From the NCBI GenBank assembly GCA_021155965.1, contig JAJNBJ010000020.1, forward strand, positions 1-64,000: DNA of 64,000 nt. The letters are read 5' to 3'. Source of the DNA: Flavipsychrobacter sp. (lineage in GTDB: Bacteria > Bacteroidota > Bacteroidia > Chitinophagales > Chitinophagaceae). This document shows positions 32,523 to 37,234 of this stretch, piece by piece (position 1 is the first letter of the stretch; each line of letters opens with the position of its first letter). The position numbers and the translations under genes are program-made. The notes under the pieces are model-generated. The model saw nothing but the letters and a program-made list of their open reading frames with translations, was not told where the DNA came from and did not search any database.

Positions 32523-32759
32523 TTCCCAATTCATGCAGCGATTGATTATCAATTAGTAGCGCCATTTTACGCATATACATTATCTATCTATAATAAAACT
32601 GAGCCCGCTCATAAAAAATTCAGGCAGTTTTTCATTAAATTTATAGTAGCAAAATGCAGCGTGGATTAACTGACTCTTACGCCCGTTATTTTCAGCTATA
32701 CCATATCAATCAGACAGTTCGTCTACGCGCATAATAAGTTCACTTCAAAACTTTTTTTT

Positions 32760-34895
32760 ATGCCGGAATTTGATAGTAATCATGTCAAAAACATTGTGCT
32801 GCTCGGACACTCGGGCAGCGGAAAAACAACACTTGCAGAAGCCATGCTTTTCCAGGCAGGCCTTATTAACCGCAGGGGATCTATAGCGGAAAAGAATACC
32901 GTTGCAGATTACACTGACCTGGAGAAAGAACGCGGCAACACAATCTTCTCCAAACTACTGCATGCACCGTGGAAAGGGTATAAAATAAATATCCTGGACA
33001 CACCCGGCTACGACGATTTCTCGGGCGAAGTAATTAGTGCACTAAGGGTGGCTGATACTGGTGTGATGCTGCTGAACGCAAGCGAAGGTGTGGAGGTAGG
33101 CACAGATATCATCTGGGAGTATACCGAGAAGTTCAAAACACCAACGATCTTCCTGGTAAATAAATTGGATCATGAAAAAGCTGATTTTGACAAAACCATT
33201 GCCGAAGCAAAAGCCCATTTTGGCAATAATGTTGTAGTAGTACAGTACCCACTGAACCAGGGTGAGAACTTTAATGCCATGATAGATGTGCTGAATATGG
33301 TGATGTATCAATATGGCAAAGATCCTAAACCACAGAAACTATCTATACCCGAAAGTGAAAAAGCCCGTGCCGAGGCTTTACATAAAGAACTTATTGAAGC
33401 CATAGCCTCAAATGATGAGGGGCTAATGGAAAAATATTTCGACAAAGGAGAACTGACAGAAGATGAAATGCGGCAAGGGCTGCATGTATCAATGACCAAA
33501 CACGACCTGTTCCCCGTATTCTGCGCTTCTGCTGAACAGAACCGGGGCGTAGCAAGGCTGATGGGCTACATAGATAATGTATGTCCACCGTCATGCGAGA
33601 TGCCACCGCAGTTAATGAGCACAGGTGAAAATCTGCCTTGCAACAGCAATGCCAGTGCATGTATATTTATATACAAAACTGTTAATGAACCTCATGTTGG
33701 CGAACTCAGCTTTTTTAAAGTTTATTCAGGAACGGTTAAAACAGGGATGGAGTTGGTGAATGAAAATACCGGCGTTACAGAACGCCTGAACCAGCTTTAC
33801 GTAATGGAGGGTAATAAACGCATAAATGTGACTGAACTTATTGCCGGAGATATTGGCGCAACATTAAAACTGCGCAATACGCACGTAAACAATACGCTAC
33901 ACGAGAAAGGAAAAAACATTGAATTATCTCCAATCGTTTTTCCGGAAACTAAATTGAGTATTGCATTGGCAAATAACAAAAAAGGTGAAGAAGAAAAGCT
34001 GGCCGCAGCACTACACCAGCTAAAAGAGGAGGATCCCACAATGCATGTAGAAGTATCAGCAGAACTGGGACAAACATTACTGCACTGCCAGGGAGATATG
34101 CATCTTGCCGTTATTAAATGGAAGCTTCAACATATATATCACCTTGATGTAGTTTATAGCAGGCCAAAAGTCGCTTACCGGGAAACTATAAGGTCCAGGG
34201 CGGATGCCACATACCGCCACAAAAAACAATCGGGTGGCTCCGGGCAGTTTGGCGAAGTAACAATGCGTATTGAACCGTGGTATGAGGGGATGCCCGACCC
34301 TAACGATATTACCATACGCGGCAAAGAAGTACACAACCTGCCATGGGGTGGTAAACTCGTTTACTATAACTGTATTGTTGGCGGTGTTATAGATGCACGC
34401 TTCCTCCCATCAATTCTTAAAGGCGTTATGGAGAAGATGCACAGCGGCCCGCTAACCGGATCGTATGTAAGGGACATTCGTGTATGTGTGTATGATGGTA
34501 AAATGCATGCAGTAGATAGCAATGACCTGTCATTTAAGATCGCTGGCATGATGGCATTTAAAGATGCGTTTCAGCATGCCAACCCCTTACTCATGGAGCC
34601 TATATATGCTATGGAGGTCTTAGCACCCGATGAACTTACAGGCGCCATACTGGGCGATATCCAGATGCGAAGGGGTATGATAGAAGGGTTTAACAATGAA
34701 GGACATTTTACGGTAATTAATGCGAAAGTGCCTCATGCTGAAACCTACCAATATGCATCTGCACTGCGCAGCCTCTCGCAGGGGAAAGCAAGGTTCAGGA
34801 TGAGGTTTGACCACTATGCACCTGTTTCGCCTGAACTGCAAAAGAAGCTTACTGAAGCTCATAATAAGGAGGTCCCGGAACTGGCTGAAGCTTAG
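32760..34895 (+). CDS. EF-G paralogue (EF-G2 type translation GTPase)
   Basis: This 711-aa protein has all EF-G domains: G1 GHSGSGKT (16-23), G2 ERGNTI (57-62), G3 DTPGYDDF (80-87), NKLD (134-137), domain IV with SGGSGQFGEVTMRIEP, and a domain V ending. In canonical EF-G the G3 motif is DTPGHVDF, whose His is catalytic; here it is Tyr84. Bacteroides EF-G2 is, to my knowledge, reported to support translation without normal GTP hydrolysis, and this protein looks like that class. It is monocistronic, with 237 bp of featureless sequence upstream and a strong terminator downstream. Confidence 0.88.
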   Translation: MPEFDSNHVKNIVLLGHSGSGKTTLAEAMLFQAGLINRRGSIAEKNTVADYTDLEKERGNTIFSKLLHAPWKGYKINILDTPGYDDFSGEVISALRVADTGVMLLNASEGVEVGTDIIWEYTEKFKTPTIFLVNKLDHEKADFDKTIAEAKAHFGNNVVVVQYPLNQGENFNAMIDVLNMVMYQYGKDPKPQKLSIPESEKARAEALHKELIEAIASNDEGLMEKYFDKGELTEDEMRQGLHVSMTKHDLFPVFCASAEQNRGVARLMGYIDNVCPPSCEMPPQLMSTGENLPCNSNASACIFIYKTVNEPHVGELSFFKVYSGTVKTGMELVNENTGVTERLNQLYVMEGNKRINVTELIAGDIGATLKLRNTHVNNTLHEKGKNIELSPIVFPETKLSIALANNKKGEEEKLAAALHQLKEEDPTMHVEVSAELGQTLLHCQGDMHLAVIKWKLQHIYHLDVVYSRPKVAYRETIRSRADATYRHKKQSGGSGQFGEVTMRIEPWYEGMPDPNDITIRGKEVHNLPWGGKLVYYNCIVGGVIDARFLPSILKGVMEKMHSGPLTGSYVRDIRVCVYDGKMHAVDSNDLSFKIAGMMAFKDAFQHANPLLMEPIYAMEVLAPDELTGAILGDIQMRRGMIEGFNNEGHFTVINAKVPHAETYQYASALRSLSQGKARFRMRFDHYAPVSPELQKKLTEAHNKEVPELAEA

Positions 34896-34969: not shown

Positions 34970-34997
34970 TTTGTTAGTTCTTATTCACTTAACTTTA
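34970..34997 (+). promoter_or_regulatory. Candidate promoter of the thiamine operon
   Basis: TTTG (34970-34973), 16 bp, TAACTTTA (34990-34997). The spacing is short, but the predicted transcription start (about 35003) coincides with the first base-paired nucleotides of the riboswitch. Confidence 0.4.
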
Positions 34998-35001
34998 CTT
35001 C

Positions 35002-35077
35002 ACTTTAGGGGTGCCTACCGGCTGAGATCATACCCTTTGAACCTGAACAGGGTAATGCCTGCGGATGGGAAAAAGTA
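35002..35077 (+). promoter_or_regulatory. TPP riboswitch (THI element)
   Basis: The conserved core is complete: GGGGTGCC, CTGAGAT, ACCCTTTGAACCTGA, CAGGGTAATGCCTGCG and GATGGGA in the right order. P1 pairs ACTTT (35002-35006) with AAAGT (35073-35077). It precedes thiS by 66 nt and should repress the thi operon when thiamine pyrophosphate is bound. No terminator follows directly, so control is probably at translation of thiS or through a weaker structure. Confidence 0.95.
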
Positions 35078-35143
35078 ATCTTCAAAGCTATCCGTATTTG
35101 CTCCCTCAGAGTTTATTGTTTTTTGCATAACAACAATTGTTGC

Positions 35144-35347
35144 ATGAATATTTATATCAATAGCAAACCGCAGGAATTGAGCAGTGATTCGAAAATAACC
35201 GACGCATTGGCCTTGCTCAATATTACGGCTCAAAAGGGCATTGCTATAGCTATCAATAATAATGTCATTCCAAAATCAGAATGGGATACTTATATATTAC
35301 AGGAAGAAGATAAGGTGATGTTGATACGTGCCGCACAAGGCGGATAG
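35144..35347 (+). CDS. thiS: Sulfur carrier protein ThiS
   Basis: This 67-aa ubiquitin-fold protein ends in Gly-Gly (RAAQGG), which is thiocarboxylated to donate sulfur for the thiazole ring. The ATG at 35144 gives the family N-terminus MNIYINSKPQEL; the upstream ATG at 35123 adds a non-homologous leader. It is the first gene of the riboswitch-controlled operon. Confidence 0.92.
   Translation: MNIYINSKPQELSSDSKITDALALLNITAQKGIAIAINNNVIPKSEWDTYILQEEDKVMLIRAAQGG

Positions 35348-35374: not shown

Positions 35375-37234
<1,860 letters not shown>

Follow-up and report, generated by a model that had tools for sequence, protein, structure and literature searches.

An EFG II paralogue of elongation factor G with tyrosine at the G3 histidine position in a Flavipsychrobacter genome

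The locus described here lies in a stretch of 64,000 nucleotides (hereafter the window) from a Flavipsychrobacter sp. assembly (GCA_021155965.1, contig JAJNBJ010000020.1). It encodes a paralogue of elongation factor G (EF-G) in which tyrosine occupies the position of the catalytic histidine in the G3 motif. Two questions follow. Is this replacement a property of the gene, or of the family to which it belongs, and does it tell us whether the protein hydrolyses GTP?

The gene and its placement in EFG II

The gene is a complete open reading frame whose product contains all of the EF-G domains I-V (Pfam), and the motifs on which our analysis turns are collected in Table 1. A preliminary description of this DNA had read the G3 motif as DTPGYDDF instead of DTPGHVDF and switch I as ERGNTI. 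Both readings were correct, the latter falling within the stretch EKERGNTIF, as was the claim that the motifs for GTP binding are kept (Lys22-Thr23 of G1, Asp80 and the NKLD of G4). Two more changes had been passed over, namely that of the P-loop Asp (AHIDAGKT to GHSGSGKT) and that of the first Ile of RGITI.

Table 1. Features of the EFG II gene (positions in the window)
Feature	Position	Strand	Remarks
EFG II EF-G paralogue (EF-G2/fusA2-like)	32760..34895	+	Complete ORF, ATG start, 711 aa plus stop
G1/P-loop GHSGSGKT, residues 16-23	32805..32828	+	Gly19 replaces Asp of AHIDAGKT; Lys22-Thr23 kept
G2/switch I RGNTI, residues 58-62	32931..32945	+	Asn60 replaces first Ile of RGITI; Mg-ligand Thr61 kept
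G3/switch II DTPGYDDF, residues 80-87	32997..33020	+	Tyr84 (TAC, 33009-33011) replaces catalytic His
G4 NKLD, residues 134-137	33159..33170	+	Guanine recognition kept
His583, domain IV tip	34506..34508	+	Kept in 123/123 EFG II and 14/14 EFG I aligned

The second fusA that the preliminary description had suggested looking for is present in this genome (completeness 99.78%) on a separate contig (G000:C6) and carries the canonical motifs AHIDAGKT, RGITI and DTPGHVDF, so the objection that the genome might hold no other EF-G gene falls away. The two proteins share about 32-33% identity. Furthermore, five other genomes of the genus encode an intact, full-length EF-G2 that is 81-83% identical to the window protein and has Tyr at G3 in each case, which rules out chance or an assembly error. 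The dN between the window gene and these congeners was 0.11-0.13; dS was saturated, and hence no ratio is given. The same identities and the complete reading frame led us to reject a broken or recent copy of fusA.

Membership of the window protein in the EFG II subfamily is well supported, because the tree, the diagnostic residues and the profile searches agree. In a tree of 61 rows, made by a quick search with no bootstrap, 53 EFG II rows split from eight EFG I rows with a branch support of 100. A clade of 50 holds the window gene together with Bacteroides thetaiotaomicron EF-G2 (SH-aLRT 99) and excludes Thermus thermophilus EF-G-2 and the EFG II of Ilyobacter and Vescimonas, which are the only three EFG II rows outside it; the T. 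thermophilus row (1WDT) is limited to the G domain, 37% of the columns. At the diagnostic positions of EFG II (PMC3150367, Tables 1 and 2), the window protein matches at 11 of 13 and its own canonical FusA at 4 of 13. One miss is Thr where Ser is expected, at T. thermophilus EF-G position 64; the other, Leu for Glu at 543, may be an alignment shift, as Glu occurs there in none of the 50 clade rows. The RGITI consensus, whose absence from G2 marks EFG II, is likewise absent (RGNTI).

The top NCBIfam model was EFG2_Bacteroid (NF058620), at 970.6 bits and so below its curated cut-off of 1000. The wider model NF009381 (PRK12740.1-5) was passed (889.6 bits against a cut-off of 583), whereas the canonical model TIGR00484 gave 550.9 bits against 659.4. 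The best PDB match by sequence was B. thetaiotaomicron EF-G2 (7UVP/8DMF), with 737 bits compared with 490 for T. thermophilus EF-G. Similarly, when an AlphaFold2 model built from 30 sequences (mean pLDDT 88.6) was compared with the PDB by Foldseek, the first match was 8DMF, the ribosome-bound B. thetaiotaomicron EF-G2 (TM 0.91); 1WDT reached 0.82, but several canonical EF-G entries reached 0.90 and thus the fold alone cannot decide the subfamily. The shared clade and the best PDB match bear out the original view that the gene encodes an EF-G paralogue akin to Bacteroides EF-G2.

Two other identities were rejected. Models of tetracycline ribosomal protection proteins scored at most 299 bits against cut-offs of at least 775 (among the best 25 of 29 matching families), and the sole PADLOC match, which might have suggested a defence gene, scored 20.5 bits over 34 residues in the region of the P-loop. 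The molecule field of the 7UVP/8DMF chain in the PDB reads 'Tetracycline resistance protein TetQ', which is misleading for annotation transfer; we discounted this name, since the title of 8DMF, which contains this chain, names B. thetaiotaomicron EF-G2.

Residue 84 and its companions across EFG II

The position of the G3 histidine was read in 123 aligned EFG II sequences, the window's own included, all of them distinct and the sample biased to near relatives; two short rows (L021 and L057) and a duplicate of the window gene (L002) were left out. It was occupied by Tyr in 31, Phe in 29, Leu in 28, Ser in 18 and Ala in 7, and more rarely by Met (5), Thr (3), Asn (1) or Pro (1), and never by His. 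A further 40 more distant EFG II of the phylum, hand-picked from the lower half of the matches listed, none repeating one of the 123 and each read in the G domain only, had Tyr in 34, Leu in 4, Ser in 1 and Phe in 1. The catalytic His is thus found in 0 of 163 EFG II of the phylum (123 aligned and 40 read at G3), and its loss is a trait of the EFG II family, not of the window gene. In EFG I, His was present in all 14 aligned sequences (13 distinct), as were RGITI and AHIDAGKT. These counts led us to reject the idea of a Tyr confined to this gene or lineage, with the prevalence of Tyr in the distant set holding among the matches listed.

By parsimony, Tyr is the ancestral state of EFG II, a result that draws on three outside rows only, with at least 17 changes at this position among the 50 members of the clade. 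On this reconstruction the window gene carries the default residue of the family and the B. thetaiotaomicron Ser is a derived state. The alignment of G3 with Bacteroides EF-G2 and FusA, which the preliminary description had proposed, therefore gave a divided answer: His is lost in both paralogues, but the Bacteroides protein has Ser and not Tyr.

Ranked by variability within EFG II, the G3 His position comes 106th of 700; among the 143 G-domain positions at which EFG I shows no variation, it comes 8th. The adjacent residues Asp80, Pro82 and Gly83 are constant in EFG II. The 123 sequences show no variation, where a residue is present, at Lys22, Thr23, Asp80, Gly83, Asn134 and His583. The two co-changed positions behave differently from these: none of the 122 EFG II with a residue at these sites retains the first Ile of RGITI and one of them retains the P-loop Asp, the remaining row having a gap at both. 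In translational GTPases we take these residues to be part of the hydrophobic gate and of a monovalent-cation site, respectively. The three changes (G3, switch I and P-loop) are not always coupled, since the Vescimonas protein outside the clade (L177) combines Asn in place of the His with an unchanged switch I Ile.

Distribution, neighbourhood and upstream region

The preliminary description had suggested that this gene would extend the Bacteroides finding to another lineage, but such an extension is not new. EFG II, with its lost RGITI, its spread over phyla and YGYSV as the Bacteroidetes variant of G2, was described in 2011 (Margus et al., PMC3150367), and fusA2 has since been called highly conserved across Bacteroidetes (PMC6989115, published in 2020). 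The window gene is a further member of a subfamily that was already known. The loss of His itself may not be spelled out in the 2011 paper, because G3 is given there only as DxPG and the words 'histidine', 'tyrosine' and 'DTPGH' are absent, as whole words, from its main text.

In our phylum sample, 217 of 296 genomes (own included, counted by eye among the matches listed) had a match at 1e-150 or better, a limit that would miss more divergent EFG II. Within the genus the distribution is patchy: EF-G2 was found in 6 of 35 genomes, the window's own included, and in 6 of the 25 with a completeness of 90% or more and contamination of 5% or less. Some of these absences may be assembly gaps; one genome (G001) had no full-length EF-G match, canonical or EF-G2.

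The surroundings of the gene differ within the genus. In the window, rimO adjoins the EF-G2 gene, whereas in the five other EF-G2-bearing congeners the 1500 bases flanking rimO on each side contained no EF-G2. In one of them (L006), thiC lies downstream of EF-G2, as it does in the window. There, a TPP riboswitch (Rfam RF00059, 63.2 bits) occupies 34997-35088 (+), between EF-G2 and a thiC-like ORF at 35387-37234, and a 67-aa ORF at 35144-35347 (+) with a Gly-Gly end resembles thiS by eye; thiC and thiS are putative names here.

Two loci from the wider sample deserve mention. The EFG II of L119 (G315:C40, family f24) is 65% identical to the window protein and sits in a group of 11 rows, the rest of which come from the window's family (support 100); no EFG II was found at 1e-150, among the matches listed, in the other sampled members of its genus (g41). 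Its acquisition by gene transfer is likely, given this grouping and the lack of matches in its congeners. At L138 (G192:C1:2852586-2854700), the match was listed with two inner TAA stops, yet one open frame of about 700 aa is readable, and the stops probably lie near the edge of the match, and do not mark a decayed gene.

A link to starvation had also been proposed. In B. thetaiotaomicron, BT4338 activates fusA2 under carbon limitation via a 22-bp region (PMC6989115), and we compared the 14-base palindromic core of this operator with the 300 bases upstream of 20 EFG II genes (L105 had no upstream sequence). In Bacteroides (L102) the core was exact, 130 bases upstream of fusA2, and none of 200 shuffles was as good; in the 300 bases upstream of the window gene, in contrast, the best match had five mismatches and 200 of 200 shuffles were as good. 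The starvation link is therefore not borne out by this operator. The core was found with one or two mismatches at L103, L098 and L108 and only with three or four at L113, L114, L106, L048 and L054. Of the five same-genus loci, L008 had two mismatches (16 of 200 shuffles as good) and the other four had three or four. A scan of the whole window for the palindrome with up to three mismatches gave 52 matches against 55.6 expected, none of them in 32523-32759. A regulator other than BT4338 is possible for the window gene.

Proposed function and comparison with studied relatives

The window protein is a five-domain EF-G with intact GTP-binding motifs and an intact domain IV translocation tip, in which three positions linked to hydrolysis in canonical translational GTPases are changed (G3 His to Tyr, the first Ile of RGITI to Asn and the P-loop Asp to Gly). 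The reading that we consider best, and probable although by no means assured, is that it is an auxiliary GTP-binding translocase with weak or no hydrolysis. We prefer it because of the clade shared with B. thetaiotaomicron EF-G2 and the fixed His583. In such a mechanism, bound GTP would order the switches and so permit ribosome binding, which together with the insertion of domain IV would lead to tRNA-mRNA translocation; ribosome-stimulated hydrolysis would be weak or absent and turnover consequently slow. The protein would then act as a low-cost or back-up EF-G beside canonical FusA. Several facts count against this reading: the Tyr, the Gly for Asp in the P-loop and the altered switch I are common to T. 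thermophilus EF-G-2, which reportedly hydrolyses GTP on ribosomes; switch I of the window protein retains Thr61 and the RG of RGITI; the score falls short of the EFG2_Bacteroid cut-off; and L177 shows that the three changes can be uncoupled.

The main alternative, which seems to us rather unlikely, is an EFG II that hydrolyses GTP as T. thermophilus EF-G-2 does, with Tyr84, or another group together with the sarcin-ricin loop of the ribosome, still positioning the water; such a protein would be a slower, GTP-consuming factor. Its Tyr and P-loop type are those of the T. thermophilus protein, for which GTP hydrolysis is reported (PMC3832671, PMC3150367), and a residue that is both the parsimony ancestor and prevalent among the distant EFG II listed may be kept for a reason. 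However, the Tyr is also present in Mycobacterium smegmatis EF-G2, a protein reported to be without ribosome-dependent GTPase activity, T. thermophilus EF-G-2 is placed outside the clade, and relatives within the clade carry Phe, Leu, Ser, Ala, Met, Thr, Asn or Pro after the many changes noted above. A recycling, rescue or hibernation factor, binding the ribosome in the GTP form without translocation in the manner of the split-role paralogues of Borrelia, is very unlikely: EF-G paralogues elsewhere do have split functions (PMC3150367), but the domain IV tip, His583 included, is kept here and the nearest studied relative, that of B. thetaiotaomicron, is reported to support translation (PMC10294740).

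Returning to the auxiliary translocase with weak or no hydrolysis, a broader proposal can be made tentatively. Hydrolysis may have been abandoned early by the entire Bacteroidota EFG II clade, leaving GTP as a binding ligand only, with the window protein nearer to the ancestral active site. What suggests this is that the His position drifts while the GTP-binding residues and the domain IV tip are fixed. It has long been asked whether EF-G must hydrolyse GTP to achieve movement or only in order to turn over, and the window gene alone adds little to this question. The family, however, offers natural variants at the catalytic position, with Tyr in the window protein and in both hydrolysing and non-hydrolysing relatives, Ser in Bacteroides, and Leu or Phe elsewhere, and this variation makes it testable which change ends hydrolysis.

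How far, then, do the studied proteins resemble the one described here? Canonical EF-G (FusA, EFG I) shares the five domains and the GTP-binding motifs but keeps His, RGITI and AHIDAGKT. In canonical EF-G, H92A is reported to be highly deficient in hydrolysis, with multi-turnover translocation still seen, whereas with H92Q the rate of hydrolysis is not significantly affected and phosphate release is slow (PMC12775393). T. thermophilus EF-G-2 (1WDT, 2DY1) is, like the window protein, an EFG II with Tyr at G3 (DAPGYGDF) and a similar P-loop (GHAGSGKT), but it falls outside the clade on its G domain and has HRTTV in switch I. Reports credit it with ribosome-dependent GTPase activity and with some poly(Phe) synthesis (PMC3832671, PMC3150367), the two papers disagreeing on its intrinsic activity. 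M. smegmatis EF-G2 (9K0Z, 9K10), absent from the rows of our tree, also has Tyr at G3 (DTPGYADF); it is reported to bind nucleotides and to show no ribosome-dependent GTPase (PMC3150367, PMC3832671). Thus, going by these reports, Tyr at G3 by itself predicts neither hydrolysis nor its loss, and the earlier extension of hydrolysis-free translation to this gene gains no support from the Tyr itself; together with H92A and H92Q, the studied relatives indicate that the G3 residue alone does not predict the rate of hydrolysis.

Finally, B. thetaiotaomicron EF-G2 (fusA2, BT2167; 7UVP, 8DMF) belongs to the same EFG II clade (48% identity in the fold alignment) and is reported to enable GTP-independent translation (PMC10294740). 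Both proteins have a non-canonical G3, switch I and P-loop and keep the residues for GTP binding and the His at the domain IV tip. They differ in G3 (DCPGSDDF, with Ser, against DTPGYDDF) and in switch I (YGYSV against RGNTI), and the Bacteroides gene has the BT4338 operator. Because it keeps Thr61 and the RG of RGITI, the window protein is nearer to canonical EF-G than B. thetaiotaomicron EF-G2 is.
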